A stretch of 64,000 bases of DNA from Mucilaginibacter achroorhodeus (GTDB lineage: Bacteria > Bacteroidota > Bacteroidia > Sphingobacteriales > Sphingobacteriaceae), in contig NZ_VOEI01000003.1 of assembly GCF_007846095.1 (NCBI RefSeq), positions 124,001 through 188,000 on the forward strand, written 5' to 3'. The notes below the pieces were generated by a model. The model saw only the letters and a list, made by a program, of their open reading frames with translations. It was not told the DNA's origin and made no database searches. Of the stretch, positions 45,843-64,000 are shown piece after piece. Both the position numbers and the translations under genes were made by a program. Numbering within the stretch: position 1 is the first letter of the stretch; every line of letters starts with the position of its first letter.

Positions 45843-45881
45843 GTGATTTTGTATTTACTTGCCAAACATTATCTAAACAAC

Positions 45882-47135
45882 GTGGACAGAGTTATACAAA
45901 AAAAGAAGTGGAGCAATAAACGCCTGATGACCATAGCCGGTATCACCGGTGTTGTGGTGCTGGTTGCAGGCAGCATATTTTTTACATCCGGTAAAAGCAA
46001 ATTGAACGTTGATACAGAACGCATTACTATAAGTGAGATAAAGAAAGGCCCTTTCCAGGAATTTATTCCGGTTAACGGCGTGGTGATGCCCCGTACTACT
46101 ATATACCTTGACGCTGTTGAAGGTGGGCAGGTTGAAGAAAAGTATGTTGAAGATGGCGCTATGCTAAAAAAAGGCGATCCGATCCTGAAGCTATCCAACA
46201 TAGATGAGGAGCTAAGCCTTGCATCACAAGAATCAGCAGTATTTGGCGAGCAGACACAAATGCAGATAGCCCACAATAACGCACAACAAAATACGGTAAG
46301 CAAGCTTAACCAAATGGCTGATGTTGACAATGCCTACAAAGAAGCCGAACGTATTTATTTGCTTGATAAAAGCCTTTACGAGCAAAAAGCAATAGGGTTA
46401 CAGGAATACCAGGCCGCTAAAAACAACTATGACTACCAGGTGCGCCGTAAACGCTTAACTACCCAAATATTAAAGCAGGATACCAGCTTAACAAAACAAC
46501 AGGAGCAACAGGCGCAGGAGCATTATGCGCAAATGAAAAACGCTTTAACCCTGATGCGGAAAAAAGTGGGAAGCTTAACTCTGCGTGCGCCGATAGACGG
46601 ACAATTAACCTCTATGGATGCCGAAGTGGGGCAGAACAAAAATAAAGGTGAACACCTGGGCCAGATAGATGCACAAAATGGTTTTAAAGTACGGGTTGAT
46701 GTTGAAGAGCACTACCTTTCACGTATCTACAATGGCTTAATGGGCGATTTCGTCTTTGCTGATAAAACTTATAAATTAACTATTAAAAAGGTTTACTCGC
46801 AGATCACTAACGGACGCTTTCAGGTTGATATGGAATTTGTGGGCACGGTGCCTAAAGGCATCCGTAAAGGTCAAACCCTGCAGATACGTCTTGCGCTGAG
46901 CGACGAAACAACCGCCTTACTTGTTCCTCGTGGTGGTTTTTACCAGCAAACCGGTGGTAACTGGATCTTTAAAGTAAGCGAGGATGGTAAAACAGCCTAC
47001 AAAACCGATGTACAGATAGGACGCCAAAACCCTGATTATTTTGAAGTGCTGCAAGGTTTAAAACCAGGCGACAAGGTGATCACCTCAAGTTACGAGAACT
47101 ACGGCGATATACAGGAACTGGTGCTAAAAGAATGA
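45882..47135 (+). CDS. HlyD/MacA-type periplasmic adaptor of the ABC array
   Basis: 417-aa membrane fusion protein. An N-terminal membrane anchor (residues ~15-35: LMTIAGITGVVVLVAGSIFF) is followed by the barrel-sandwich (lipoyl) half TIYLDAVEGGQVEEKYVEDGAMLKKGD..., a coiled-coil hairpin (~95-220, with ERIYLLDKSLYEQKAIGLQEYQ), the second lipoyl half LTLRAPIDGQLTSMDAEVGQ and beta-barrel domains ending GLKPGDKVITSSYENY. It should bridge the permease complex to an outer membrane channel, which is not encoded here. The frame is open from a GTG at 45843, but the GTG at 45882 gives the usual VDRVIQKKKW start and leaves the predicted promoter outside the gene. Confidence 0.9.
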   Translation: MDRVIQKKKWSNKRLMTIAGITGVVVLVAGSIFFTSGKSKLNVDTERITISEIKKGPFQEFIPVNGVVMPRTTIYLDAVEGGQVEEKYVEDGAMLKKGDPILKLSNIDEELSLASQESAVFGEQTQMQIAHNNAQQNTVSKLNQMADVDNAYKEAERIYLLDKSLYEQKAIGLQEYQAAKNNYDYQVRRKRLTTQILKQDTSLTKQQEQQAQEHYAQMKNALTLMRKKVGSLTLRAPIDGQLTSMDAEVGQNKNKGEHLGQIDAQNGFKVRVDVEEHYLSRIYNGLMGDFVFADKTYKLTIKKVYSQITNGRFQVDMEFVGTVPKGIRKGQTLQIRLALSDETTALLVPRGGFYQQTGGNWIFKVSEDGKTAYKTDVQIGRQNPDYFEVLQGLKPGDKVITSSYENYGDIQELVLKE

Positions 47136-47219
47136 TAGATTTCTTTTGCAACGAAATTGGCGCAGGCTGCGTCTGATAATTAGAAACACGAAATAAAAGA
47201 CATAATCACAATTAACAAC

Positions 47220-47251
47220 AAACCCGCCGGCCTTAAACAGCCGGTGGGTTT
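47220..47251 (+). other. Stable hairpin directly before an AAGGAGG ribosome-binding site
   Basis: AAACCCGCCGGC / GCCGGTGGGTTT, a 12-bp stem (one wobble) with an 8-nt loop, immediately followed by AAGGAGG (from 47252) and ATG at 47263. The strong Shine-Dalgarno is unusual for this phylum. The hairpin may regulate ATPase translation or protect mRNA after cleavage. Confidence 0.5.
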
Positions 47252-47262
47252 AAGGAGGCCAA

Positions 47263-47940
47263 ATGATAAAAATTACAAATCTTGAGAAGTTCTATCGTAC
47301 AGAAGAGGTAGAGACCATTGCGCTTAACAAGCTATCGATGCACGTTGATACCGGCGAGTTTGTTGCGATAATGGGCCCATCTGGTTGCGGTAAATCAACC
47401 CTGCTTAATATTTTGGGCATGCTGGATGACCCGGATGAAGGCAGCTACGTTTTTAACGATATTGAAGTTGCCCACTTCAACGAACGTAAACGTGCCGACC
47501 TGCGCAAACACAACATAGGTTTCGTATTCCAGAGCTTTAACCTGATCGATGAACTTACCGTTTTTGAAAATGTTGAACTCCCTTTGATCTACACAGGTGT
47601 AAGCGCGGCAGAACGCGTAAAAAGGGTAGAAGAAGTGTTAGATAAAATGCAGATCATGCACCGTCGTAACCACTACCCGCAACAATTATCCGGTGGTCAG
47701 CAACAACGTGTGGCTATTGCCCGTGCGGTTGTTAACAAACCAAAGCTGATATTGGCGGATGAGCCTACCGGTAACCTGGATAGCAGCAACGGTAACGATG
47801 TAATGGAACTTTTAACAGACCTTAACGAGCAAGGCACTACCATTATCATGGTAACACACTCTGAGCACGATGCACGTTACAGCCACCGTATCATCCGTTT
47901 GTTAGACGGACAAACTGTGATGGAAAACATCATGGTATAA
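47263..47940 (+). CDS. ABC ATPase (MacB/LolD type) of the permease array
   Basis: 225-aa ATPase. Walker A GPSGCGKST (~residues 38-46), Q-loop FVFQSFNLIDELTVFENVELPL, signature LSGGQQQRVAIARAV, Walker B LILADEPTGNLDS and H-loop VTHSEHDARY. It belongs to the mechanotransmission group (MacB, LolD, FtsE). It is the only ATPase encoded among six permeases, so it must energise all of them. It is preceded by a hairpin and an unusually strong ribosome-binding site, which could give the higher ATPase levels that six permeases need. Confidence 0.95.
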   Translation: MIKITNLEKFYRTEEVETIALNKLSMHVDTGEFVAIMGPSGCGKSTLLNILGMLDDPDEGSYVFNDIEVAHFNERKRADLRKHNIGFVFQSFNLIDELTVFENVELPLIYTGVSAAERVKRVEEVLDKMQIMHRRNHYPQQLSGGQQQRVAIARAVVNKPKLILADEPTGNLDSSNGNDVMELLTDLNEQGTTIIMVTHSEHDARYSHRIIRLLDGQTVMENIMV

Positions 47941-47992
47941 TAACTTACTGATCTTTAGTTAATAATATAGTTAAGTGTGCCTCCTGCTTACT

Positions 47993-48019
47993 CCCTCTGC
48001 CGCCCGAACCGGCAGAGGG
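47993..48019 (+). other. GC-rich hairpin between ATPase and permease 1
   Basis: CCCTCTGCCG / CGGCAGAGGG perfect ten-base stem with a 7-nt loop in the 184-bp gap. It lacks a T run, so it is probably an mRNA stability or partial-attenuation element, not a full terminator. Confidence 0.45.
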
Positions 48020-48124
48020 GTTAGCTTGAGATTTGCCCAAATTTTTTCACAAAGCGCCTAATGTAAGTTGCTTGCCGGTGTTGAACAAATGGGTTAGTTT
48101 TTTAAAACCTCTAAGTAATCTATC

Positions 48125-50557
48125 ATGATAAAAAACTACATTAAAACCGCGTTCAGAAGCCTTTACAAAAACAAAGGGTTTACCGCTATTAACATATTAG
48201 GTTTAGCACTTGGCTTGCTATCATGCCTTTTAATTGTATTATATGTTGTAGATGAGCTAAGCTTTGACCGCTACAACACAAATCACGACCGTATCTTCCG
48301 TGTAAATGAAGATCTAAAACTTGGCGATAACAAGGTTGATTACGCTGTAGCCATGCCGCCGCTGGCCAAAACCATGAAGGTTGAATACCCTTATGTTGTG
48401 GAAGCTACCCGCATTAAAGCTGCTGGCACAACACACGTAAAAAAAGGGGATCTTACCGTTGTAGAAAATCGTATCGCCTTTGCAGATGCATCTATATTCA
48501 GCGTGTTTACACTGCCCATGATAAGTGGTGACCCCAAAACTGCTTTAAAAGACCCAAATACTGTTGTCTTAACTGAAACTACTGCACGCAAGTATTTCAA
48601 CACCACTGATGCCGTTGGCAAAACCATCATATTTAACGATAAAGAGAACTTTAAAGTAACCGGCGTTATCAAAGATGTACCGAAGCAATCGCATTTTAAC
48701 TTTGACTTTTTTGTGTCGCTTGAATCTTTCCCTGATAGCCGTTCAAATGAATGGTTACGCAGCGATTACAACACCTATGTTTTACTGAAAGATAAAAAAT
48801 ACGCAAAGCAGTTAGAAGCAAGCTTCCCTGCGTTTCTTCAAAAATTTAGCGGAGCCCAAATGCAGTCAGAACTGCACATGAGTTATGATCAGTTTGAAAA
48901 GAGCGGAAGCTATTTCAGAATGAACCTTACCCCGCTGGACGACATCCATTTGAGATCAGCCCGTAACGGCGAACTTGGGCCAAATAGCACCGTTCAGTAC
49001 GTTTATATATTTTCTGCTATTGCAATATTCATCCTGCTTATAGCTTGTGTTAATTTCATGAACCTAAGCACTGCGCGCTCTGCAAATCGTGCACGCGAAG
49101 TAGGCGTGCGAAAAGTCTTAGGCTCTTCGCGCAATAACCTCATCTTTCAATTCCTGGCCGAATCGCTTTTAGTAACGTTGATTGCAACAGTAATAGCTTC
49201 TTTTTCAGCTGCGGCATTGCTACCGCTATTCAATCAACTGGCAGGTAAAGAAATAGTGCTTACTGCGCAAACTGTCATCTGGCTTGTGCCTTCCCTGCTT
49301 GCAATTGTTTTAGTAGTGGGAGCCTTAGCTGGATCTTACCCTGCTTTTTTCCTATCTGCATTCCAACCTATAGCCGTATTAAAAGGAAAGCTTTCAAACG
49401 GTTTCAAAAGCAGTTTCCTGCGCAGTTTTTTGGTGGTTTTTCAATTTAGTGTATCTATTCTATTGATCATTGGCACGCTGGTGATCTATAATCAATTAAA
49501 CTTTATCCAAACCAAAAATCTTGGCTACAACCGTAACCAGGTTTTGGTGGTTCAAAATGCATTCGAACTGGGTAACCAGGCATCCATCTTTAAACAGGAG
49601 TTAGCAGACCTGCCGGGCGTAAAAGCCACCACCATGACAGGCTTCTTGCCAACATCCGGATGGAAAAACACCCGTATCTTTTTCAAAGATGCTTCCCTCA
49701 ATCAAAAAGAATCAATGTTCCCGCAAACCTGGGATGTTGATGCCGATTGGATACCAACCCTGGATATGAAAATGGCGCAGGGCCGTAATTTCAACAAAGA
49801 TATTGCTACCGACTCATCTGCCGTGATAATCAATGAGGCAGCGGCCAGATTCCTGGGCTTTAATGATAACGCCGTAAATAAAGAATTATATCAGTCCCTT
49901 GGTGGTAAAACCGAATTAGCTAACACTAAACTGTACCATGTTGTTGGTGTTGTGAAGGACTTCCACTTTAACTCGCTTAGAGAGAAAATAGAGCCGGTTG
50001 TGTTAAAGCTTGGCCAAAACAACGGTGCATTAAGTATCAGGTTAAGTGCTAATAACCTGCCACAACTGATCAGCCAGATAAAAGCTAAATGGAGCAGCCT
50101 GTCACCCGGCTTACAGATCAATTATTCGTTCATGGATCAGGATTTTGACACCATTTACAAAAGTGAGCAACGCGTGGGTGAGATCTTTGTCATATTTACA
50201 ACACTTGCTATTGTAATTGCATGCCTCGGCTTATTTGGTTTGGCAGCCTACGCCGCTGAGCAACGTACAAAAGAGATAGGTATCCGCAAGGTTTTAGGAG
50301 CCGATGTAACCTCTATTGTATCGATGTTGTCTAAAGATTTTGTAAAACTGGTTGTACTTGCACTGGTAATAGCTGCACCACTGGCCTGGTACCTAATGAA
50401 CAAGTGGCTTCAGGATTTTGCCTACCGGATACATATACAGTGGTGGGTAATAGCCGCTGCCGGCATAGGTGCATTACTGATAGCGATTGTCACTATCAGT
50501 TTCCAATCAATAAAAGCTGCACTGGCAAACCCGGTTAACAGCCTCAAAGACCAATAA
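48125..50557 (+). CDS. MacB/FtsX-like ABC permease 1 of 6
   Basis: 810-aa inner-membrane protein. N-terminal helix (LGLALGLLSCLLIVLYVVDE, ~residues 22-44), a large periplasmic domain (~50-285), a first FtsX block with ACVNFMNLSTARSANRAREV (~300), a second periplasmic domain, and a C-terminal FtsX block with CLGLFGLAAYAAEQRTKEIG and tail IKAALANPVNSLKDQ. The two FtsX blocks make it a fused double-length MacB-type permease. These machines transmit ATPase motion across the membrane rather than move substrate through it. It is 184 bp after the ATPase. Confidence 0.93.
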   Translation: MIKNYIKTAFRSLYKNKGFTAINILGLALGLLSCLLIVLYVVDELSFDRYNTNHDRIFRVNEDLKLGDNKVDYAVAMPPLAKTMKVEYPYVVEATRIKAAGTTHVKKGDLTVVENRIAFADASIFSVFTLPMISGDPKTALKDPNTVVLTETTARKYFNTTDAVGKTIIFNDKENFKVTGVIKDVPKQSHFNFDFFVSLESFPDSRSNEWLRSDYNTYVLLKDKKYAKQLEASFPAFLQKFSGAQMQSELHMSYDQFEKSGSYFRMNLTPLDDIHLRSARNGELGPNSTVQYVYIFSAIAIFILLIACVNFMNLSTARSANRAREVGVRKVLGSSRNNLIFQFLAESLLVTLIATVIASFSAAALLPLFNQLAGKEIVLTAQTVIWLVPSLLAIVLVVGALAGSYPAFFLSAFQPIAVLKGKLSNGFKSSFLRSFLVVFQFSVSILLIIGTLVIYNQLNFIQTKNLGYNRNQVLVVQNAFELGNQASIFKQELADLPGVKATTMTGFLPTSGWKNTRIFFKDASLNQKESMFPQTWDVDADWIPTLDMKMAQGRNFNKDIATDSSAVIINEAAARFLGFNDNAVNKELYQSLGGKTELANTKLYHVVGVVKDFHFNSLREKIEPVVLKLGQNNGALSIRLSANNLPQLISQIKAKWSSLSPGLQINYSFMDQDFDTIYKSEQRVGEIFVIFTTLAIVIACLGLFGLAAYAAEQRTKEIGIRKVLGADVTSIVSMLSKDFVKLVVLALVIAAPLAWYLMNKWLQDFAYRIHIQWWVIAAAGIGALLIAIVTISFQSIKAALANPVNSLKDQ

Positions 50558-50624
50558 ACAACGTTGCTACTTGTTTGACACCAGTGCATTGACTTAAAGA
50601 CCAGATGACTCAATTATAGAAAAT

Positions 50625-52991
50625 ATGTTTAAGAACTACCTAAAGATCACATGGCGAAACCTGATGAAAAACAAAGGTTTCACGGCTATCAATATTGCGG
50701 GTTTGGCTGTTGGCATGGCCAGCGCAGCACTTATCTTATTTTGGGTACAAAACGAGGTAAGCTATGATAGGTTTCACACCAAGGCAGACCGATTGTACAA
50801 CATGTATAACCGCTCGCGTTTTGATGGCAAATTATGGTGTTGGAATACAACTCCAGAGCCAATGCGAAAATCTCTTAAACAGGATTACCCACAGGTAGAT
50901 CAGGCAACACGGGTCACCGATGCTGGTTTTCTATTTACCGTTGGCGAAAAGCATTTAACGATGCAGGGCAACTTCGTGGATAACGATTTCCTGACGATGT
51001 TCAGTTTCCCGCTTATAAAAGGTGACGCTAAAGCGGCACTTAATGTGATGAAGAACATTGTATTGACCGAGTCTACAGCCAAACGACTTTTCGGTAATGA
51101 CGATGCGATGGGCAAAACCATCAAGATTGACAGTGTTGATTATTTTACTGTAACAGGTGTTATGAAGGATCTGCCAAACAATACCCGTTTCAAGTTTGAT
51201 TACCTTCTTCCATGGCAATACTATGATAAGATCAGCAACAAAGGTAGTGAGTCTGCCAATTGGGGAAATAACGACGTCAACACATATATAACTTTAAAAC
51301 CGGGCGTTACGGAAGATTTCTTTAACTCACGTGTTAAAAATATTACCCGTTCGCATTCAGATATCAAAGACATTGACGTTTTTGTACATCCGGCAAAAAA
51401 ATGGCGCCTTTACTCAAAGTTTGAAGAAGGCAAACAAGTGGGCGGTAAAATTGAAGTAATAACGCTTTTCAGTGTTATAGCCGCTTTTATATTACTGATA
51501 GCCTGTATCAACTTCATGAACCTAAGTACTGCCAGAAGCGAAAAGCGTGCTAAGGAAGTAGGCATACGCAAGGTGGTTGGCGCCGGTAAAAGCAGTTTGA
51601 TAGCTCAATTTATGGGCGAATCAATACTCATCTCTTTAATTTCAGGAGCAATTGCGCTGTTGATAGTTCAACTTTCATTATCAGGCTTTAACAACCTTAC
51701 ACAGAAGCAGTTATTTATTCCGTACGGCAGCCCATCGTTCTGGTTGATCTTTACTGGATTCATTGTTTTCACCGGCTTATTAGCGGGTAGTTATCCTGCA
51801 CTTTATCTATCCTCGTTTGCGCCGGTTAAGGTATTAAAGGGAACCTTTAAAGCTGCTAACGCAACTTTTTCACCACGAAAAATTTTGGTAGTTACACAAT
51901 TCACTTTTGCTATAGTGCTTATCATCAGCACAATCATTGTTAAAGAACAGTTGGATTATGCGCAAAACCGCGAAACAGGCTATGCCAAAAATAAACTGGT
52001 GTATACCCTCATGACCGGGGAAATAAGTAAGAATTATAATCTTATCCGTAATGAGTTGGTTATCAGCGGTGCGGCGGCAGCTGTTACCAAAACCAGTGCA
52101 CCAATAACCGAAGGTTGGAGCGATACCTGGGACTTTTCGTGGCCGGGCAAACATGAGGGCGATAAAATAGACTTTAACGTATTTAACACCGATGGTAATT
52201 TCACCAAAACCATGGGCCTTAAGATAATTGATGGCAGGGATATAGACATAACTAAATATCCGGGCGATTCAACCGCTATTATGCTGAACGAGGCCGCGGT
52301 TAAAGTGATGGGGCTTAAAAACCCAGTTGGGCAAATTGTGCTCAACGGTAACAAAACCAAACTTACCGTAGTAGGCGTTGTGAAAGATTTTGTTCTTCAA
52401 TCGCCGTATGACCCGGTTAAACAAATGGTTATACAGGGGCCGTCAGCATGGTTTAACGTAATACACTTTAAATTAAACGATAACCTGAGCACCGCTCAAA
52501 GCCTCAAACTGGCCGAAGGCGTTTTCAAAAAATACAATCCCGAATATCCATTTGAGCCACACTTTGTAGATGAAGCTTACGGTAAGAAATTTCAGGATGA
52601 GCAACGGATAGGTACACTTGCATCTCTATTTGCAGGACTAACCGTATTTATCTCATGCCTTGGCCTGTTTGGTTTAGCTACTTACATGGCACAAAACCGC
52701 ATTAAAGAGATCGGTGTACGCAAAGTTTTAGGCGCCTCAGTTATGCGGGTAACCACTATGCTATCAAAAGACTTCCTGAAACTTGTAGGTATTGCCTTCG
52801 CTATTTCTGTACCCATATCATGGTATCTCATGAGCCAATGGCTACAAAAATACTCCTACCGGGTTGAGATAAGCGTTTGGGTGTTTGTAGCAGCCGCACT
52901 GCTTACTACGCTTATTTCCATCTTAACAGTTAGCACACAAGCTGTAAAAGCAGCGCTTGCTAATCCGGTTAAGAGTTTACGTTCAGAATAA
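50625..52991 (+). CDS. MacB/FtsX-like ABC permease 2 of 6
   Basis: 788-aa paralogue of the other five permeases: N-terminal helix (GLAVGMASAALILFWVQNE), first FtsX block with ACINFMNLSTARSEKRAKEV, C-terminal block with CLGLFGLATYMAQNRIKEIG and tail VKAALANPVKSLRSE. The first periplasmic domain is tryptophan-rich near its start (KLWCWNTTPEPM), unlike permeases 1 and 5, and more like permease 4 (ETWVWESAPYQ); the two may form a subgroup. 67 bp after permease 1. Confidence 0.93.
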   Translation: MFKNYLKITWRNLMKNKGFTAINIAGLAVGMASAALILFWVQNEVSYDRFHTKADRLYNMYNRSRFDGKLWCWNTTPEPMRKSLKQDYPQVDQATRVTDAGFLFTVGEKHLTMQGNFVDNDFLTMFSFPLIKGDAKAALNVMKNIVLTESTAKRLFGNDDAMGKTIKIDSVDYFTVTGVMKDLPNNTRFKFDYLLPWQYYDKISNKGSESANWGNNDVNTYITLKPGVTEDFFNSRVKNITRSHSDIKDIDVFVHPAKKWRLYSKFEEGKQVGGKIEVITLFSVIAAFILLIACINFMNLSTARSEKRAKEVGIRKVVGAGKSSLIAQFMGESILISLISGAIALLIVQLSLSGFNNLTQKQLFIPYGSPSFWLIFTGFIVFTGLLAGSYPALYLSSFAPVKVLKGTFKAANATFSPRKILVVTQFTFAIVLIISTIIVKEQLDYAQNRETGYAKNKLVYTLMTGEISKNYNLIRNELVISGAAAAVTKTSAPITEGWSDTWDFSWPGKHEGDKIDFNVFNTDGNFTKTMGLKIIDGRDIDITKYPGDSTAIMLNEAAVKVMGLKNPVGQIVLNGNKTKLTVVGVVKDFVLQSPYDPVKQMVIQGPSAWFNVIHFKLNDNLSTAQSLKLAEGVFKKYNPEYPFEPHFVDEAYGKKFQDEQRIGTLASLFAGLTVFISCLGLFGLATYMAQNRIKEIGVRKVLGASVMRVTTMLSKDFLKLVGIAFAISVPISWYLMSQWLQKYSYRVEISVWVFVAAALLTTLISILTVSTQAVKAALANPVKSLRSE

Positions 52992-53057
52992 TTAAGGGCT
53001 CCATTAACTCAAATAGGGTTTGGTGTTTAGTTTTCACTTCATTAGCATTTAAGTATC

Positions 53058-55448
53058 ATGATATTAAACTATTTAAAAACAGCCTGGCGCAACATCTTAT
53101 CCAATAAGTTTTATGCAGCCATTAATGTTACCGGTTTAACGGTTGGATTAGTAGTTGGTATTTTTATGCTGCTGTGGGTGCAGGACGAATTAAGCTTTGA
53201 CCGCTTTAATTCTAAAGCTGATAACATTTATAAAGTAGGCATTGTAGGCGGTACCGGTTTAAGCAAGCAGATATTTAGTAATATCATTGCTCCGGTATCA
53301 ACATTTGCCAAAAACGAACTGCCGGATGTTAAGGATGGCGTGCGTATTATGGCTGTAGGAGATGCACCGTTCAAGTACAAAGACAAAGTTTTTTACGAGG
53401 ATAATTTTTGCTTTACTGATCCATCTTATTTTTCCGTTTTTGATTTTCCGTTGATAAAGGGAGATAAGCGCAATCCATTTCCTGATAATAACACCATTGT
53501 AATTACTGAAAGCACTGCCAAAAAATATTTCGGGACCGAAGACCCTATCGGCAAGACAGTGATTATCGGGCAAAATGAACCCGTATCCGTTACCGGCGTC
53601 ATTGCTGATTATCCTAAGAATTCCAGTTTCCAATACCGTGTAATGCTGCCGTTATCGAGGTTTAACTACCTGGCTTATATCAAGAACAAAACCAGCTATG
53701 ATGGGAAAACAACTGTACAATCAATGGATGCAGATTGGTCAAGTTTTTCTTTCCAAACTTATTTACTTACTAAACCAAATACCAAAGCCGCTAAGCTTGA
53801 AAAAGAGCTGCAGGCTATACACGAGCGACAAAAACCTGAAGATGCCCCTGTTCCATACCTTACACAGCCTCTGCCGCAAATGCACCTTTACCAGGCTGAT
53901 GGTACGGATGGCGGCATGTCAACGGTTCGTATGTTTGCTATTGTTGCTGTTATGATATTGGTTATAGCTTGTATAAACTACGTTAATCTGTCAACCGCAC
54001 GATCAATGCTTAGAGCGAAAGAAGTAAGCATCCGCAAGATCATTGGTGCGGGCAAGTTTCAATTGTTTATGCAGTTTATGGTAGAAACAGCGCTTTTATT
54101 CGCCCTAGCGGCTGCAGTAGCAATTGCATTAATGTTTATATTATTACCTTATTACAACCAGTTCTCCGGCAAGCAAATAGCGTTAAATATTACCAGTTTT
54201 AATGTTTGGGCTTGCGTGGTGATAACGCTTATCGGCACCTTAACGGCATCAAGTATTTACCCGGCTTTGTTACTTTCTTCGTTTGAACCATTAAAGGCTT
54301 TAAAAGGAAAGGTTACTGCTGGTATTGGTACCGCCGCGTTCCGCAGAATATTGGTGGTATTACAGTTCAGCGTATCGGTAGTGCTTATTGTAAGCACGCT
54401 GATCATTGGTAAGCAGCTAAAATATGTTTTTACAAAGGATTTAGGTTACGATAAAGAGAATATAATCACATTTAACATGCGCGATGATATGCACAAGCAT
54501 GCTGATGCGGTGATGAATGAACTCAAGAAAGATCCGTCTGTTTTGGCTGCAACGGTATCCAGCCGCAATATGGTTGTTGGCGGTTCCTCAACCGGGAATA
54601 ATGATTGGGACGGCAAACCGAAATCATCAAATCTGTGGTTCAATCAAATTCACGGTGATAAAAATCTTATCGATTTTTTTAAGATAAAGTTGATACAGGG
54701 AAGCAACTTTACAGGCGTGGTTGCAGATAGTTCGCATTTTATCATTAACGAAACGGCCGTGAAGGAAATGGGCCTTAGTGGTAATGTGATAGGAAAACGA
54801 CTGAGGATACAAACCATAAATGGTACCATAATAGGGGTGGTTAAAGATTTCCACTTCCAAAACCTGCATAAAAAGATAGAGCCTGTGGTTTTCCAATATA
54901 ACCCGGCAAACAGCTGGCGGGTTTACCTTAAAATAACCAATGCCAATGCCCAAAGAGCAATTGCGATTAGCACAGCAGTATGGAAGCAATATAACAATGA
55001 TGTACCATTCAATTATGCTTTTTTGGATGATAGCTACCGCAGAATTTACAGCGATGATAGCAGGCAGGGACAACTCTTTAATATATTCTCTGCTATAGCT
55101 ATCGTTATTTCCTGCCTGGGGCTATTCGGTTTGGCCACTTACTCGGCCCAGGTTAAAACGCGGGAGATAGGTATTAGAAAAGTTTTGGGCGCAAGTGTCG
55201 CCCGCATCATAACACTGTTAGCAAGGGAATTTATGATACTCATTGCCTTATCAACTGCCATTGGTTTACCTGTGGCGTGGTATGCCATGAACAAGTGGCT
55301 GCAGGATTTTGCTTACAAAACAAATATAGGCTGGGCGGTATTCGCGTTTGCTGCATTTGCCGCTGCCGCTGTAGCGCTTGCCACCATCAGTGTGCAATCA
55401 ATAAAAGCTGCACTTGCAAACCCAGTAAAAAGCCTCAGAAGCGAATAA
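53058..55448 (+). CDS. MacB/FtsX-like ABC permease 3 of 6
   Basis: 796-aa paralogue: N-terminal helix (GLTVGLVVGIFMLLWVQDE), first FtsX block with ACINYVNLSTARSMLRAKEV, C-terminal block with CLGLFGLATYSAQVKTREIG and tail IKAALANPVKSLRSE. The periplasmic domain after the first helix (YKVGIVGGTGLSKQIFSN) is different from those of the other five, as expected if the periplasmic parts specify partners while the membrane parts dock to one ATPase. 66 bp after permease 2. Confidence 0.93.
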   Translation: MILNYLKTAWRNILSNKFYAAINVTGLTVGLVVGIFMLLWVQDELSFDRFNSKADNIYKVGIVGGTGLSKQIFSNIIAPVSTFAKNELPDVKDGVRIMAVGDAPFKYKDKVFYEDNFCFTDPSYFSVFDFPLIKGDKRNPFPDNNTIVITESTAKKYFGTEDPIGKTVIIGQNEPVSVTGVIADYPKNSSFQYRVMLPLSRFNYLAYIKNKTSYDGKTTVQSMDADWSSFSFQTYLLTKPNTKAAKLEKELQAIHERQKPEDAPVPYLTQPLPQMHLYQADGTDGGMSTVRMFAIVAVMILVIACINYVNLSTARSMLRAKEVSIRKIIGAGKFQLFMQFMVETALLFALAAAVAIALMFILLPYYNQFSGKQIALNITSFNVWACVVITLIGTLTASSIYPALLLSSFEPLKALKGKVTAGIGTAAFRRILVVLQFSVSVVLIVSTLIIGKQLKYVFTKDLGYDKENIITFNMRDDMHKHADAVMNELKKDPSVLAATVSSRNMVVGGSSTGNNDWDGKPKSSNLWFNQIHGDKNLIDFFKIKLIQGSNFTGVVADSSHFIINETAVKEMGLSGNVIGKRLRIQTINGTIIGVVKDFHFQNLHKKIEPVVFQYNPANSWRVYLKITNANAQRAIAISTAVWKQYNNDVPFNYAFLDDSYRRIYSDDSRQGQLFNIFSAIAIVISCLGLFGLATYSAQVKTREIGIRKVLGASVARIITLLAREFMILIALSTAIGLPVAWYAMNKWLQDFAYKTNIGWAVFAFAAFAAAAVALATISVQSIKAALANPVKSLRSE

Positions 55449-55502
55449 TGATTTAAGGCTGCTTTGAAAGCAGCCCATTTTGCGAACTTTTATTTTTAAG
55501 AG

Positions 55503-57908
55503 ATGCTTAAAAACTATTTCAAAACTGCTTGGAGAAGCTTTTGGAAACACCGCTCCACCGGCTTCATTAACATAGCTGGCTTGTCTGTTGGTATGGCTGC
55601 AGCTGTGCTCATCTTTATTTGGGTGCACAACGAATTCACTTTTGACGACGACCAGCCCGATGCGGAAAACGTTTACCGGATAACCAGCCACCTGGCCATA
55701 AGCAAAAACGAAACTTGGGTATGGGAAAGCGCACCATATCAATTAGGGTTAGAAGCTAAAAAAACGATGCCTGAGGTTGTTGCGGTAACAAGGGTGCTTC
55801 CATTTCATTGGGAGCCCATGTACCTTAGCATCAATAATGAGTTTTTTAAAGAGGAGAATGCTGCATATATAGACGAATCATGGTTTAATGTATTTAAAAC
55901 CAACTTCGTAAGCGGCAATGCAATAGCATTTAATCAAAATCCATTCAGCATTATTCTTTCAGAAAGCAAGGCAAAAAAGTATTTCGCTAATCAGGATGCT
56001 GTAGGTAAAATCATCCGCATTGATTCTGCCAATTACCAGGTACAGGCAGTTGTCAAAGACGCACCTGCTAACTCCAGTTTTAAATTTGATTTGTTTATAC
56101 CTATTGCAGCAAGGCAAGCTGATGCGCAAGAGAAAAAGAACGATATGAGTTGGGGCAATTTCTCATATATCACCTTCCTAAAATTTAAACCTGGAACTAA
56201 CATAAAACAGGCTACAGAAAATTTAAAAAGCATCATCAAGCCACATCGTGATAAGAACGATAATTTGAATATCACCTTAAGAAATTTAAAGGCGATGCAC
56301 TTTGAGAGTGATCTTCAAAATTCTGGATTGGTACATGCCGAAAAAAAGGTTGTTTACATATTTGTTATCCTGGGTGCATTGCTGCTGATCATAGCGTGTA
56401 TCAATTATGTAAACCTAACAACTGCACGCGCCAGCCTTAGAGCCAAAGAGGTAAGTATTAAAAAGATAGTAGGAGCAGGCAGGGGACATCTGTTCAACCA
56501 GTTTGTTGCCGAGTCGGCAGTGATAAGTGTGTTGGCGCTTGTGCTTACGGTAATTATTGTAAGTGCTGCCTTACCATCTTTCAATAGCTTTACTAATCGC
56601 AATTTTTCGCTAACAACAGGTTCTGCGTATCTGTGGCTTATCATGATAGGCACCTTGCTTTTAACAATTATACTTAACAGCATTTATCCGGCAGTGCTGC
56701 TTTCGTCTTTTAAGCCGTTAAGTGCGTTTAGGGGCGGGAGCGTTATGAAAATAAAAGATACGTCGTTGAGGAAGGGTTTGGTGGTATTACAATTTACATT
56801 CTCTATATTTTTAATTATTGGCGTTATCACCATTTACAAACAACTGTCTTTTGTTCAGTCGCAAAATCCGGGTTATGATCGTTCGCAGATCATGTCGTTT
56901 AATCTTTCATGGAAGTTACTTAAGGGTATGAAAGATGATCAAAAAGCAGCTGTAAAATCAACCTTAAAACAAGCTATTCTGCAAGAACCATTCGTTAACG
57001 GCGTCTCACTGGTTGGCATGGAGTCGATACAATCAAATGGTAGTTTTTCCTCAGGCAGTGCCGATTGGGAAGGCCGTCCAAAAGATTTTAACCCAAGCAT
57101 AACTTATTTTAATGTTGATGGTGATTACAACAAATTGGTGAACATTAATTTTACATCAGGGAGGTGGTTTTTCCCGGGCAGCGTAGATAAACGCAACGTA
57201 ATAATCAATGAAACTGCAGCCAAGCAATTTAATTTACACAAACCTTATGTTGGCCAGCGTTTTATAGCACAGGGCGATACAGGTGTTGTTGTAGGCGTTG
57301 TTAAAGACTTTAATTTTCAATCTATGCACGCAAAGATAACTCCGGTGGTGTTTAAGTTAGACCAGCAATGGAGTTCAAACTACCTTGTTAAAGTTGCTCC
57401 GCATAAACAAGCGCAAGCTATTGCCAGAATGGAAAGTATCTGGAAGCAAAATTTCCCGGATCAACCATTCTCTTATCAATTCCTTGATCAGGAGTTTGAT
57501 AAAATATACCGCGAGGATGCTAAAGCTTCTACATTGATGTCGGGTTTTGCTGTGGTTGCCATCATCATCTCATGCCTTGGGTTGTTTGGTTTAGCGGCAT
57601 TTACGGCTGAACAAAGAGGCAAGGAGATTGGTATCCGCAAAGTATTAGGTGCTTCAATAGCTGGCCTTGTATCGTTGCTTTCCGTTGAGTTTGTGGTTTT
57701 AGTGCTGGTAGCGTTAGTGATTGCGGCGCCATTAGCTTACTGGTTAATGAACCTGTGGCTACAAAACTTTGCTTACCGTATATCAATGCAATGGTGGATA
57801 TTTATGGCTGCCGGTTTTGTTGCAGTACTGATAGCGTTTGCAACAGTAGGCCTGCAAACAATTAAAGCAGCGATGGCCAACCCTGTGAAGAGTCTAAGAT
57901 CGGAATAG
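55503..57908 (+). CDS. MacB/FtsX-like ABC permease 4 of 6
   Basis: 801-aa paralogue: N-terminal helix (GLSVGMAAAVLIFIWVHNE), first FtsX block with ACINYVNLTTARASLRAKEV, C-terminal block with CLGLFGLAAFTAEQRGKEIG and tail IKAAMANPVKSLRSE. The N-terminal EFTFDDDQPDAENVYRI differs from the usual SFDRYN..ADRIF. Last gene of the first predicted transcription unit; the 188 bp that follow hold the second enhancer/promoter region. Confidence 0.93.
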   Translation: MLKNYFKTAWRSFWKHRSTGFINIAGLSVGMAAAVLIFIWVHNEFTFDDDQPDAENVYRITSHLAISKNETWVWESAPYQLGLEAKKTMPEVVAVTRVLPFHWEPMYLSINNEFFKEENAAYIDESWFNVFKTNFVSGNAIAFNQNPFSIILSESKAKKYFANQDAVGKIIRIDSANYQVQAVVKDAPANSSFKFDLFIPIAARQADAQEKKNDMSWGNFSYITFLKFKPGTNIKQATENLKSIIKPHRDKNDNLNITLRNLKAMHFESDLQNSGLVHAEKKVVYIFVILGALLLIIACINYVNLTTARASLRAKEVSIKKIVGAGRGHLFNQFVAESAVISVLALVLTVIIVSAALPSFNSFTNRNFSLTTGSAYLWLIMIGTLLLTIILNSIYPAVLLSSFKPLSAFRGGSVMKIKDTSLRKGLVVLQFTFSIFLIIGVITIYKQLSFVQSQNPGYDRSQIMSFNLSWKLLKGMKDDQKAAVKSTLKQAILQEPFVNGVSLVGMESIQSNGSFSSGSADWEGRPKDFNPSITYFNVDGDYNKLVNINFTSGRWFFPGSVDKRNVIINETAAKQFNLHKPYVGQRFIAQGDTGVVVGVVKDFNFQSMHAKITPVVFKLDQQWSSNYLVKVAPHKQAQAIARMESIWKQNFPDQPFSYQFLDQEFDKIYREDAKASTLMSGFAVVAIIISCLGLFGLAAFTAEQRGKEIGIRKVLGASIAGLVSLLSVEFVVLVLVALVIAAPLAYWLMNLWLQNFAYRISMQWWIFMAAGFVAVLIAFATVGLQTIKAAMANPVKSLRSE

Positions 57909-57964
57909 ATAAGTTGTGCATTGGAGCACGAGGTGATATTTACCCCATCTACGATATTAATCTC

Positions 57965-58004
57965 TTGTATCATAACCGAACACTTACTGTTGCAGATGCG
58001 TACG
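57965..58004 (+). promoter_or_regulatory. Enhancer-like dyad, copy B (upstream of permease 5)
   Basis: Second copy of the 40-bp element (36/40 identical to 45745-45784). Here the dyad is complete: GTA-N9-AACA-N5-TGTT-N9-TAC. It lies 57 bp after the permease 4 stop codon and 93 bp before the permease 5 ATG. Confidence 0.72.
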
Positions 58005-58026
58005 CTTAAAAAACTGTGAACTGCAA

Positions 58027-58063
58027 TAAAATATTGATTTACAAATATTTATGGTATTGGCAT
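58027..58063 (+). promoter_or_regulatory. AT-rich 21-bp element with IHF-like site (inverted), and TGGCAT box (copy B)
   Basis: 58032-58052 is the reverse complement of 45806-45826. On the minus strand AATCAA-TATT-TTA (58027-58039) matches the IHF consensus. TGGCAT at 58058-58063 begins 55 bases from the dyad end, against 54 in copy A. A standard -12 GC is not visible. Confidence 0.5.
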
Positions 58064-58096
58064 TCATATTAGTGCTTATCTGTACATTATACAGTT

Positions 58097-60499
58097 ATGA
58101 TACACAATTACCTTAAAATAGCATGGAGGAGTCTTTTAAAACATAAGGCTTTCTCATTTATCAATATAATTGGTCTTGCGGTAGGTATAACGGCTTTTGG
58201 CCTTATTGCGCTGTATGTGACAGATGAGTGGAGTTATGACAGATATAACACCAAAGCTGATCGAATTTTCAGAGTGGCACAGCATGGGCAATGGCAAGGC
58301 GGTAAATTTGATATTGCCGTTACTTCACCCCCATATGCGCCTACGCTTAAATCAGAATTTCCGCAAGTTGTAGAGGCGTGCCGAATTGATGCAGAAGGAG
58401 GCAGCAAAATAGTTTACGGCAATAAATCTCTTGAAGAAGGAAGCATTCTATTTGCTGACAATAGCATCTTCAGTATCTTTTCTTATAACTTTTTATCCGG
58501 CGATGCTACTAAAGCGCTTAATAAACCTAATACGGTTGTTTTAACGGAATCACTGGCTAAGAACTTATTTGGCGATGCAGGATCAGCCACCGGTAAAATG
58601 CTTCAAATGGGTGATACCCCAACAGAGGTAACAGGTGTTATTGCAGATGTACCAGTAAATTCACACTTTGCCTTTAAAGCTTTACGCGCTTTCCCTGCCG
58701 GTTACTTTACAGGCTACAATAACAGTTGGGGCAACTCAAATCTATACACTTATCTGCTTTTAAAAAACCAGGCCGATGCAAAAGAGATTGAAGCGTCGGG
58801 TAATGCTTTCTTTAACAGGCATGTAAAAAGTGAGCTTGGGCCTATGAAGTTCACGTTAGAACTTCAGCCTTTGACTGACATCCACTTGCGCTCTAACCTA
58901 AGCTATGAACTGGGTGCGAATGGTAATATCACTTACGTGTATGCTTTTGGTATAACGGCAATTTTAATATTGGTTATCGCTATTATCAATTATGTTAATT
59001 TAACTACAGCGCGTTCATCCGTACGTGTAAGGGAAATTGCGGTACGAAAGGTGGTAGGCTCAGACAGGGGTCAATTAGTGACCATGTTTTTTACGGAATG
59101 TGTGCTATTGACTATAGTGGCTGCTGCTGTAGCTGCTTGTCTCATACAAATTATCCTGCCATACTTCAATCAATTGTCTGGTAAAACGCTAACCTTGTTT
59201 CAGTACGGTAAATATTATACCATAGCAATTTTTGGACTGTTTGCAGTAATTACCGGTTTGCTAAGCGGTATCTATCCTGCACTTTTTCTTTCCGGTTTCA
59301 AAACCATACCTGCAATGAAGGGCCAAATGGGTAACCAATTAGCAACTATTTTCTTCCGGAAGTCTCTTGTAGTATTCCAGTTTGTAGTCACAATTGTGCT
59401 GATTGTAGGGTCTTGCGTTATTTATCAGCAATTAAACTATTTCCAAAATAAAGATCTCGGTTTTAACAAAGCACAAACACTCACTTTTCACATTAACAAT
59501 AGGGAGGTGAGGGGCCGTATAGATGCTTTAAAACAAGCTCTTTTGCAGAACCCCCATATCGAAGCTGTAGCCGTAGCCGGTAATCCCATAGGCAACAATA
59601 ATATTGGCGGAGGTGATTTTAATCTCGGCCCTGACGGTAAACCAAATGCTGATTCTAAAATCGTACAGAATCTGCAAATAGATGAAGATTTTATCCCGGC
59701 GATGCAAATTCGCATGGCAGCGGGTCGTAATTTCTCAAAAAATATCACAAGTGATGTTAATGATGCTATCATAGTAAACGAAACACTTGTAAAAGAACTG
59801 GGATGGAAAAACCCAATAGGCAGGAAGGTCCGCACAGGTTTGGACGACAAGGGAAATGTACTTGTTCGCACAGTTGTAGGTGTTGTAAAGGATTTTAACA
59901 CGTATTCGCTGCAACACAAAATTGCGCCAATAGTGATGGAAATGCCTGCAGAAGCAAAGGACAAGGACAATTTTTATGTACGAATCGCCAAGGGAGACGT
60001 AAAAGCTTCTTTAAATTATATTACCGCTACTTATTCGGGCTTTGATCTGGAGAACAAACCGGAATTTCATTTCCTCGATCAGAACTTTGCGGCACAATAT
60101 CAAACAGAACAAAAGCAGGGAACCATCTTGCTGATCTTTACTATCCTTGCTATTAGCATAGCTTGTTTAGGTCTGTTTGGATTAGTGACTTTTACTGCAG
60201 GGCAGCGTGTAAAGGAAATTGGCATTCGCAAAGTTTTAGGCGCAAGTGTAACCAGCATAGTACGCATGCTGTCTACCGACCTCATACGTCTTGTCGGCAT
60301 TGCAATCATCATTTCTGTTCCGATAGCATGGTTTGCCATGGACAGGTGGCTACAGAATTTTGCCTATAAAATTCAGATCCAATGGTGGGTATTTATACTT
60401 GCCGGATTAGGTGCAACGGTAGTGGCTTTAGTTACAGTAAGTGTTCAATCTATAAAGGCGGCTTTAGCTAATCCGGCTAAAACCCTTAAAGATGATTGA
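58097..60499 (+). CDS. MacB/FtsX-like ABC permease 5 of 6
   Basis: 800-aa paralogue: N-terminal helix (GLAVGITAFGLIALYVTDE), first FtsX block with AIINYVNLTTARSSVRVREI, C-terminal block with CLGLFGLVTFTAGQRVKEIG and tail IKAALANPAKTLKDD. The first domain (GGKFDIAVTSPPYAPTLK) resembles permease 1 (NKVDYAVAMPPLAKTMK), and both tails end in acidic/polar KD residues, so 1 and 5 may be the closest pair. First gene of the second predicted transcription unit. Confidence 0.93.
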   Translation: MIHNYLKIAWRSLLKHKAFSFINIIGLAVGITAFGLIALYVTDEWSYDRYNTKADRIFRVAQHGQWQGGKFDIAVTSPPYAPTLKSEFPQVVEACRIDAEGGSKIVYGNKSLEEGSILFADNSIFSIFSYNFLSGDATKALNKPNTVVLTESLAKNLFGDAGSATGKMLQMGDTPTEVTGVIADVPVNSHFAFKALRAFPAGYFTGYNNSWGNSNLYTYLLLKNQADAKEIEASGNAFFNRHVKSELGPMKFTLELQPLTDIHLRSNLSYELGANGNITYVYAFGITAILILVIAIINYVNLTTARSSVRVREIAVRKVVGSDRGQLVTMFFTECVLLTIVAAAVAACLIQIILPYFNQLSGKTLTLFQYGKYYTIAIFGLFAVITGLLSGIYPALFLSGFKTIPAMKGQMGNQLATIFFRKSLVVFQFVVTIVLIVGSCVIYQQLNYFQNKDLGFNKAQTLTFHINNREVRGRIDALKQALLQNPHIEAVAVAGNPIGNNNIGGGDFNLGPDGKPNADSKIVQNLQIDEDFIPAMQIRMAAGRNFSKNITSDVNDAIIVNETLVKELGWKNPIGRKVRTGLDDKGNVLVRTVVGVVKDFNTYSLQHKIAPIVMEMPAEAKDKDNFYVRIAKGDVKASLNYITATYSGFDLENKPEFHFLDQNFAAQYQTEQKQGTILLIFTILAISIACLGLFGLVTFTAGQRVKEIGIRKVLGASVTSIVRMLSTDLIRLVGIAIIISVPIAWFAMDRWLQNFAYKIQIQWWVFILAGLGATVVALVTVSVQSIKAALANPAKTLKDD

Positions 60500-60571
60500 G
60501 TTATAGCACTGCCTCATAAAATTTAACATTATAGAGTTTAGAATTTAATAACAGAATTTCACCTGCATATC

Positions 60572-62962
60572 ATGATCAAGAATTATTTGAAAATTGCGCT
60601 TCGTGGTCTTTGGAAAAACAAGGGTTTCACTTTTATCAACCTTTTTGGCCTTACCATAGGCTTGTGTAGTTGCCTGCTAATAGGCGTTTACATTATGCAC
60701 GAGCTTAACTACGACAACACGCAAACAAAAGGCAACCGCATTGCACGTATGATAATGGAGTACAATTTTGGTAAAGGCGAAAGCAAAAAGGGAAATTATA
60801 CCAGCGTTAAGGTTGCACCTACATTCAAACGCAATTTTCCGGAGATAGAAAGCGCAGTACGCATGTTAAAATCCTCTTTGGTTATCGGTTATAAAGACAA
60901 ACTGCTTACAGAAAAATCGTTCATGTACGCCGATTCATCTTTTTTCAAGATCTTTTCTTTTGATCTCATAAAAGGGGATAAAAACACAGCATTGGATGCA
61001 TCTCATAAAGTGTTACTTACCCAAAGTACGGCTAAACGATATTTTGGTGACGAGGATCCAATTGGTAAAGCACTAAAAGTAGGTAATGATAGTATACCTT
61101 ACCAAATAAGTGGTGTAATGGCTGATTGTCCTTCAAACTCGCAGATCAAATTTGATTTCCTTGCTTCCTTTTCGTCATTAAATGTGGGTAAATGGGAGAA
61201 CAGCTATTGGAACGCAAATTTTACTACCTACCTGCTGTTAAAGGACGAACGTTCGATAGCTACCCTTCAAGCCAAAATAAAACCATTTATGGCTAAGGAA
61301 ATGACAGGAGAGGGTGCCAGTGTAAGCTTCGATTTAGAACCGTTTAAGAGTATTCACCTACATTCGCCTTATGATGGGTTTGAGCCCAATAACAACATCA
61401 AATACATTTATGTATTGGAGGCTATAGCCCTGCTGATATTGGTTATCGGTTGTTTTACTTACGTTAATCTCAACACCGCGCGCTCGATGGAACGGGCAAA
61501 AGAAGTGGGTGTCCGTAAGGTGATCGGAGCCGACAAAAGTCAGTTGTTCTGGCAATTTATTGGAGAATCGGTTATCGTTTGCGTGATTGCGGCTATCATT
61601 AGCTTTATTGCGGCTATTTTACTTTTACCGGCATTTAATAACTTAACCGACAGGCAACTACCGGTAGAAGCATTTTTCACTACGCCATTTGTAGTTGCGA
61701 CCATTACAGTGGTATTGGCAGTAAGCTTTTTCGCGGGATTGTATCCTGCATTGGTTCTTACCAATTTCCAGCCGGTTAAAGTGCTAAAGGGCGCTTTCAA
61801 AAATACTGCATCAGGGCAGTTTACCAGAAAAGCACTTATTGTTTTCCAGTTTTCTGTATCGGTTATCCTTATCGCATCAACTGTTATCATCCAGAAGCAA
61901 CTGGCTTACATTCGAAACAAAAATTTAGGTTACGAGCGCGAAAGGGTAATAATACTTCCTTTCGAGTACAGGATGAATAGCCAACTAAATGTAATGCGGA
62001 ACGAATTTAAGGCAGATAAAAACATTTTAAATGTATCGCGCTGCGTAGACGCCCCCGTGAAGATTGATGGCGGATACAACATGCGTAATGACCAGATGCC
62101 GGAGAGCCAGCAGATAGCGGTTACTGCAAACCCTATTGACCAGGAATATATAAAGACCACCGGTTTGCATATAATTGCAGGTACCGATCTAACGGAGCAG
62201 GATGTAAAAGATGCCTCTAACGAAAATAGTAAGAAAAATACCTTCCATTTCATTTTAAACGAGGCAGCTGCGAGGGAACTGGGATGGACGCCCCAGCAAG
62301 CAATTGGCAAGAGAATGTTTCTTGATTCACAGCGCCCGGGCTATGTTAAAGCCGTGGTAAAAGATTTCAACTTCGAGTCGTTGCACAATAACATAAAACC
62401 GCTTGTATTATTCCCGGAAGATTGGGGTAGCCACTTACTCATCAAGATCAGCGGCCAAAACATCCCGCAAACCATAGCCAATCTTGAAAGTAAATGGAAA
62501 GCGCTTGTTCCATATCGCCCTTTCGAGTACAGATTTATGGATGATGATTTTAACAATCTTTACAAATCTGAATTACGCCTGGGTAATGCACTTAACATTT
62601 TTGCAGCGATCGCAATCGCTTTAGCATGTATGGGTTTATTAGGTTTATCTGCTTATATGGCAAAACAGCGTATCAAAGAAATTGGCATCCGTAAAGTTTT
62701 GGGCGCAAGTATCACTGATATTACCACTACGCTGTCAGCATCTTTCATTAAGTTGGTTTTAATTTCAATAGCTATATCGTTACCTGTCGCCTGGTATGCT
62801 ACAGGGTTATGGCTGCAAGGATTTGCATATAGGGCAAACGTAAGTGCTTTAACCTTTATCGTAGCAGGTGGGTCAGTGGTGATAATTGCCATTATCACCG
62901 TAAGCTTCCAGTCTATTAAAGCAGCTCTGGCCAACCCGGTAAAAAGCTTAAAAAACGAATAA
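60572..62962 (+). CDS. MacB/FtsX-like ABC permease 6 of 6
   Basis: 796-aa paralogue: N-terminal helix (FGLTIGLCSCLLIGVYIMHE), first FtsX block with GCFTYVNLNTARSMERAKEV, C-terminal block with CMGLLGLSAYMAKQRIKEIG and tail IKAALANPVKSLKNE. It is the most divergent in conserved positions (CFTYVNLNTA for C[IV]N[YF][MV]NL[ST]TA; CMGLLGLS for CLGLFGLA). It lies 73 bp after permease 5 and 70 bp before the secreted repeat protein. Confidence 0.92.
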   Translation: MIKNYLKIALRGLWKNKGFTFINLFGLTIGLCSCLLIGVYIMHELNYDNTQTKGNRIARMIMEYNFGKGESKKGNYTSVKVAPTFKRNFPEIESAVRMLKSSLVIGYKDKLLTEKSFMYADSSFFKIFSFDLIKGDKNTALDASHKVLLTQSTAKRYFGDEDPIGKALKVGNDSIPYQISGVMADCPSNSQIKFDFLASFSSLNVGKWENSYWNANFTTYLLLKDERSIATLQAKIKPFMAKEMTGEGASVSFDLEPFKSIHLHSPYDGFEPNNNIKYIYVLEAIALLILVIGCFTYVNLNTARSMERAKEVGVRKVIGADKSQLFWQFIGESVIVCVIAAIISFIAAILLLPAFNNLTDRQLPVEAFFTTPFVVATITVVLAVSFFAGLYPALVLTNFQPVKVLKGAFKNTASGQFTRKALIVFQFSVSVILIASTVIIQKQLAYIRNKNLGYERERVIILPFEYRMNSQLNVMRNEFKADKNILNVSRCVDAPVKIDGGYNMRNDQMPESQQIAVTANPIDQEYIKTTGLHIIAGTDLTEQDVKDASNENSKKNTFHFILNEAAARELGWTPQQAIGKRMFLDSQRPGYVKAVVKDFNFESLHNNIKPLVLFPEDWGSHLLIKISGQNIPQTIANLESKWKALVPYRPFEYRFMDDDFNNLYKSELRLGNALNIFAAIAIALACMGLLGLSAYMAKQRIKEIGIRKVLGASITDITTTLSASFIKLVLISIAISLPVAWYATGLWLQGFAYRANVSALTFIVAGGSVVIIAIITVSFQSIKAALANPVKSLKNE

Positions 62963-63032
62963 TAAAATTTTATGATCTGCGTGCAACTAATTTTAGGCTG
63001 ATGCAGTCTTATACAAGAAACTTAAACACATT

Positions 63033-64000
63033 ATGAAAAAGAATTTACTATTCCTGCTATTGGCTTCAGGTGTCATTTCAGCATCCGCTCAAAGCTATAA
63101 AACTCCGTATTACACCCGCTCGTTGGCTAATGATGGCATTAAGAATGTTATCGTGAATACCAGCGGAGGCAGTATAATGGTTACCGGCGCAGGCCAGCAA
63201 CAACCTCACATTGATGTATTTGTTGTTGGCAACAACAATCAAGATCTTTCTAAAGAAGAGATCAAAAAACGCCTTGAAGAAGATTACGTCCTTGATATAG
63301 ATATCCAGAACGGGCAACTTAAAGCCATCGCCAAAAATCGTAAGAATAATATCAACTGGAGAAGGTCGTTAAGCATAGGCTTTAAAGTTTATGTTAACGC
63401 ACAAACATCTACTAACTTAAACACCAGCGGCGGTACCATCAGTATCGAGAACCTGAATGGTACCCAAAACTTTGAGACCAGCGGTGGCAGCCTTAGCATT
63501 ACCAATGTTACAGGCAACATCAAAGGCGAAACCAGCGGCGGTAGCATCTCTGTTAGTAACAGCCGTAACAATATCGATTTAGAAACCAGTGGTGGTGGCA
63601 TTACAGCTAACAACTGCAGCGGCAGGATAAAACTTGAAACCAGCGGTGGCTCCCTTGATCTTGCCAACCTTAAAGGAAACGTTAATGCCGAAACCAGTGG
63701 TGGCAGCATCAGAGGCAATAATGTAGATGGTGAATTGATCACCAGCACATCAGGCGGCAGCATTAATTTAAATGCGATTTCAGGTAGTGTAAATGCATCA
63801 ACCAGCGGCGGTAGCGTACATGTACAAATGGTAAAACTTGGCAGGTATGTAAAGCTGGAAACCAGCGCAGGCCATATAGACCTGAACGTTCCACGCCAGG
63901 CAGCAATGAACGTTAGCCTGCATGGCGACCGCGTAAACCTTGATGTAGCGGGCAATTTCCAGGGAAGTAAAGATAAAGAGGACGTTGTAGGTAAAGTTAA
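63033..64000 (+). CDS. Secreted DUF4097-like beta-helix repeat protein (partial)
   Basis: At least 322 codons, open at the right edge. Signal peptide MKKNLLFLLLASGVISASAQ, then a first ~110 residues with NDGIKNVIVNTSGGSIMVTG. From about residue 130 the motif [ENS]-T-S-G-G-[ST]-[IL] repeats roughly every 18 residues, eight or nine times, ending with ETSAGHIDLNVP. This is the pattern of a short right-handed beta-helix or DUF4097/adhesin-like sheet. It is separated from permease 6 by only 70 bp, in the same direction, so it is probably cotranscribed and could be a substrate or surface partner of the array. Confidence 0.85.
   Translation, partial: MKKNLLFLLLASGVISASAQSYKTPYYTRSLANDGIKNVIVNTSGGSIMVTGAGQQQPHIDVFVVGNNNQDLSKEEIKKRLEEDYVLDIDIQNGQLKAIAKNRKNNINWRRSLSIGFKVYVNAQTSTNLNTSGGTISIENLNGTQNFETSGGSLSITNVTGNIKGETSGGSISVSNSRNNIDLETSGGGITANNCSGRIKLETSGGSLDLANLKGNVNAETSGGSIRGNNVDGELITSTSGGSINLNAISGSVNASTSGGSVHVQMVKLGRYVKLETSAGHIDLNVPRQAAMNVSLHGDRVNLDVAGNFQGSKDKEDVVGKV

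Follow-up and report, generated by a model that had tools for sequence, protein, structure and literature searches.

What an exported repeat protein is doing among the permeases of a large transporter array is the question raised by an open reading frame in a 64,000-nucleotide stretch of the Mucilaginibacter achroorhodeus genome (the window). The frame starts at position 63033 on the forward strand and stays open to the end of the window, which holds 322 of its 342 residues. The initial annotation called for the remainder of the gene, and this was recovered from the genome (contig C8:187033-188061, 342 aa), with the stop codon at C8:188059-188061, just past the window end. The gene, its parts and its neighbours within the window are as follows.

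63033..64000, + strand: gene for an exported beta-solenoid of Toastrack/DUF4097 type (open reading frame, Pfam match and genome contig)
63033..63092, + strand: signal peptide, residues 1-20 (read from the sequence; similar orthologue N-termini; model)
63093..63419, + strand: N-terminal cap with one helix, residues 74-84 (AF2 model and homologue conservation)
63423..63911, + strand: solenoid coils, starting at residues 131, 149, 167, 185, 203, 221, 239, 257 and 277
60572..62962, + strand: permease 6 (MacB_PCD + FtsX), 70 bp upstream of the Toastrack gene
48125..60499, + strand: permeases 1-5 of the same array
47263..47940, + strand: ABC ATPase of the array
45843..47135, + strand: HlyD-type membrane fusion protein of the array
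44248..45603, - strand: NtrC-type response regulator (receiver, sigma-54 activator, Fis HTH)
42903..44258, - strand: histidine kinase, hydrophobic only in residues 8-55

The protein begins with MKKNLLFLLLASGVISASAQS, in which a signal peptide was judged by eye, with a likely cleavage near ...SAQ and without a lipobox cysteine. The N-terminus is similar in nearly all orthologues, and the earlier view of an exported protein is upheld by both. No second long hydrophobic segment was found in the protein besides the signal peptide, and residues 1-21 are disordered in the predicted model. The cap that follows contains the first TSGG at residue 43 and the conserved residues E76, Y85, W109 and F117.

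The fold was assigned by family and by structure. The Pfam family PF13349 (DUF4097, Toastrack) was matched with 35.6 bits (E = 8e-09), above the gathering score of 22.9 bits, and it was also matched by the M. conchicola orthologue. The AF2 model is a beta-solenoid with a mean pLDDT of 85 (most coils >90) and a pTM of 0.83, and the full-length orthologue of M. conchicola gave the same predicted fold, with the last 30 residues weak. The best Foldseek match of the model was 4QRK (E = 1.8e-05), the top VIA matches were 3LYC, 4OPW and 3LJY (Z about 15), and 4YGU and 3PET were also among the best Foldseek and VIA matches. The beta-helix that the initial annotation had suggested is upheld by these results. 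All these structures are annotated as putative pectinase or adhesins and resemble the model in the overall solenoid, but at an identity of only about 10-15% and with functions that are themselves putative. Two of them, 4QRK and 4OPW, are named for the Toastrack fold (PMC11237479), and the marks of this fold, a single-stranded beta-helix and a separate region of strands at the N-terminus, are present in the AF2 model. Searching solved structures by sequence gave no credible match. The gene product is almost certainly a solenoid of the Toastrack/DUF4097 family. No match to PF10988 (DUF2807 head-GIN adhesin) was obtained up to E = 10, whereas the other Toastrack protein of the genome does match it. 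That second protein (DUF2807 head GIN; L004:1441-2136, contig C1:376 kb) is likewise exported by a signal peptide, and a lone MacB-type permease lies about 8 kb from its gene.

Nine coils carry the motif TS(G/A)G, at residues 131, 149, 167, 185, 203, 221, 239, 257 and 277, and one further TSGG lies upstream of them at residue 43. Up to residue 257 successive coils are exactly 18 residues apart, in seven steps, and the last step is 20. The strictness of TSGG and the exact spacing are far beyond chance, and the eight or nine strict TSGG repeats of 18-residue period that had been read from the letters alone are confirmed as nine TSGG/TSAG coils. A second part of that reading, near-identical DNA copies pointing to recent expansion or homogenisation, fails. 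No tandem repeat array was reported at the DNA level by Tandem Repeats Finder, and the identity between coils is 47% overall and 38% once the 12 TSGG bases are left out. Within those 12 bases the coils are 78% identical, where local codon usage predicts 69 ± 2%, a likeness that is a small codon bias only. When TSGG was masked, coils at the same position in different species were 45% identical and different coils within one protein 20%, by which the coils are orthologous by position across genera and the repeats old and position-specific. Orthologues are 323-349 aa long, a range that leaves out those whose called start may be too far upstream, and exactly one 18-residue coil is missing in some lineages (at one place in L063-L067 and at another in L069-L071); the coil number is nearly constant, changing rarely and by whole coils. 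Recent expansion or homogenisation of the repeats, with variation from strain to strain, would account for TSGG codons slightly more alike than codon usage predicts and for lineages that differ by single coils, but it is highly improbable given the positional match across species, the absence of a DNA tandem array and the near-constant orthologue length, and at the species level the sequence comparison has already refuted it.

Across 38 homologues, the conserved coil positions were 0 to 5 (TSGGSI), 7, 10, 12, 14 and -2, and the variable ones -3, -1, 6, 8, 11 and 13, a strict alternation that is expected from inward versus outward residues. A conserved binding face was not seen on the outward coil positions of these homologues, which are the variable ones. 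The best reading of the TSGG repeat is that the fold requires it, and the supposed repeat expansion is corrected to an old structural solenoid.

The genes of the NtrC regulator and the kinase point away from the others, which run in the order HlyD, ATPase, permeases 1-6, Toastrack, permeases 7-11 and recR. The gene is therefore not at the end of the array, where the initial annotation had placed it, but between permeases 6 and 7 of eleven, with gaps of 70 bp upstream and 36 bp downstream in an array where gaps range from 28 to 196 bp. The array comprises eleven tandem MacB_PCD/FtsX permeases of about 800 aa with a single ATPase and HlyD (window 45843-64000; C8:169843-200521). In total the genome has 43 MacB_PCD matches, including a second array at C8:11-20 kb, and the size and permease make-up of the array differ widely between relatives. 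Permease 6 has the same architecture as the ADOP duplicated permeases (TIGR03434), but its score over the full length (273.7 bits) lies under the cut-off of that family (622.3). No periplasmic domain was seen in the histidine kinase of the array, whose hydrophobic part ends at residue 55, a topology known where sensing goes through transporters or accessory proteins. Sigma-54 -24/-12 sites with 8 of 11 matches were absent from the gene gaps of the array, no Bacteroidota -33/-7 promoter was found before the Toastrack gene, and generic promoter matches occurred at the shuffled rate. A terminator-like 12-bp stem between permeases 7 and 8 (L002:10491-10517), outside the stretch from permease 6 through Toastrack to permease 7, suggests that the array forms more than one transcript; no such stem was found at the same place in M. 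conchicola.

The link between gene and locus was then followed through the family, where the Toastrack gene was present in 33 of 151 genomes, in 38 copies. The next gene was a permease in 21 copies, and three further copies (L058, L067 and L069) lay in the HlyD/ATPase/regulator part, which places 24 of the 38 in permease/HlyD/ATPase/NtrC-kinase loci. The remaining 14 were located elsewhere, without a permease neighbour, and each of five genomes with two copies had one linked and one not. As permease-adjacent slots make up only about 1% of gene positions in the host genome (a rough estimate), a link in 24 of 38 copies is not due to chance, though the copies are related by descent. On the midpoint-rooted gene tree the locus association was clustered (6 changes against 11.6 when shuffled) and found on both sides of the deepest split. 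The permeases next to the gene do not form a single lineage (12 changes for the upstream neighbour and 7 for the downstream one), which indicates that the gene stays with the locus while its neighbours turn over; a dedicated partner permease was ruled out on these grounds. In one genome of another family of the class (L132) the order is RR<>HlyD-ATPase-permease-Toastrack-permease. Across genera, and as far as another family, the gene has kept its link to the permease locus, and by conserved gene order the exported Toastrack protein belongs to the large permease loci found in Sphingobacteriaceae.

Two close relatives have a split array: the regulator lies about 90-140 kb away, as do permeases 1-4, and the pair of permease 6 and Toastrack is kept together beside recR. 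The NtrC regulator of the array was found in 31 of the 33 genomes with the gene and in 48 of the 118 without it (Fisher 2e-8, uncorrected for phylogeny); in those 48 there is a regulator but no Toastrack match, so many arrays do without the gene. Of 395 genomes of the phylum, 137 contain homologues, and the distant ones inspected mostly have no permeases nearby. It had been proposed at the outset that the same gene without permeases would speak against a tie to the transporter. That situation was found for 14 of the 38 family copies and for most of the distant homologues inspected, from which it follows that the transporter is no obligate partner of the protein; the tie to the permease locus stands as a conserved one. 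The only conserved non-permease neighbours across genera are recR and its followers. As functional partners, recR, a glycosyltransferase and an SDR were set aside, being ordinary genes at the locus end. In one relative (L058:10284-11087), a pentapeptide-repeat protein, another solenoid, is encoded directly after the Toastrack gene.

The most likely role, by analogy and gene context, would be that of a scaffold or sensor that serves the locus from the periplasm, and we give about an even chance to a Sec-exported, unanchored periplasmic Toastrack solenoid that serves the MacB-like permease locus as a whole. Alternatively, the protein might be a beta-solenoid of the envelope or cell surface of an ordinary, adhesin-like kind, with a gene that is in the array only because gene order was inherited. 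Unlinked copies are common (14 of 38), the homologues in 137 of 395 phylum genomes mostly lack nearby permeases where inspected, and a related DUF2807 protein has been reported as an adhesin (PMC10949514), all of which speak for this explanation, though it is the less likely one. Against it stand the lack of other conserved neighbours across genera save recR and its followers, and an adjacent permease lineage that changes repeatedly while locus membership is found on both sides of the deepest split. The initial annotation also considered the protein as a client; as such it would be a cargo released or moved to the outer membrane by one permease. Export, co-directional genes and the short gaps of 70 and 36 bp are consistent with this, but the protein carries a signal peptide of its own and lacks a lipobox, no single permease lineage goes with the gene and copies exist without permeases nearby, which makes a client role quite improbable.

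For the solenoid serving the whole locus, a position outside the inner membrane would provide a surface on which the periplasmic domains of the permeases could dock or be sensed, and the solenoid may inform or damp the kinase, itself without a periplasmic sensor. Such damping would be analogous to that of the DUF4097 part of LiaX, which has been proposed to inhibit or restrain LiaFS (PMC10269926), and it is the kinase without a periplasmic domain, together with this precedent, that suggests the sensor version. In its most specific form, a sensor-adaptor shared by the eleven-permease, one-ATPase array and passing transporter or envelope state to the kinase, the proposal is speculative and on balance unlikely.

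Compared with known systems, the protein shares with the Toastrack family (PF13349, with DUF2807 and DUF2154; Ravi et al. 2024, PMC11237479) the family match, the beta-solenoid and the link to envelope loci, and Toastrack genes beside an ABC ATPase and permease were also reported in that work. Toastrack was there predicted to be intracellular and C-terminal to membrane segments, a membrane-fused state that is a general prediction of Ravi et al. and not a family-defining trait in Pfam. The present protein, in contrast, is free-standing in a multi-permease array beside an NtrC-type regulator, and its signal peptide, with no other long hydrophobic segment, differs from a membrane-fused or anchored intracellular state. 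The intracellular prediction is therefore not extended to it on account of the signal peptide, as in the DUF2807 protein of the same genome; for an exported Bacteroidota relative with DUF2807, the published function is adhesion (PMC10949514). LiaX and LiaG of Firmicutes have in common with it a PF13349 domain tied to an envelope-stress two-component system, but the LiaG equivalog of NCBIfam (NF049997) was matched at 42.2 bits, far under its cut-off of 285, the regulator here is NtrC-type, and in place of the alpha-helical antimicrobial-sensing N-terminal domain of LiaX the cap has one 11-residue helix; no LiaF was found in the part of the array that was inspected. NosD of the ABC transporter NosDFY (7O0Y) is a periplasmic beta-helix partner of a transporter (VIA Z = 13.7), but serves as an analogy only, its Z being equal to that of unrelated beta-helices such as tailspikes. 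The fold family is known and its multi-permease-array context was not found described; on MacB/FtsX permease arrays in Bacteroidetes, only the PSP paper was found in the literature. If the link is functional, it would offer a handle on what the permease arrays do and would represent a Toastrack acting outside the cytoplasm, against the general prediction.

The closest named relatives are the NORP305 MAG (86% in the best segment) and M. conchicola (82%). In the NORP305 MAG orthologue (L073:7347-7497) homology breaks off at about residue 295, as a frameshift or an error of assembly would produce. The repeats are also covered by a long open frame on the opposite strand (63389-64000, - strand; 207 aa counting bases past the window), which is explained most simply by the repetition of the TSGG codons.
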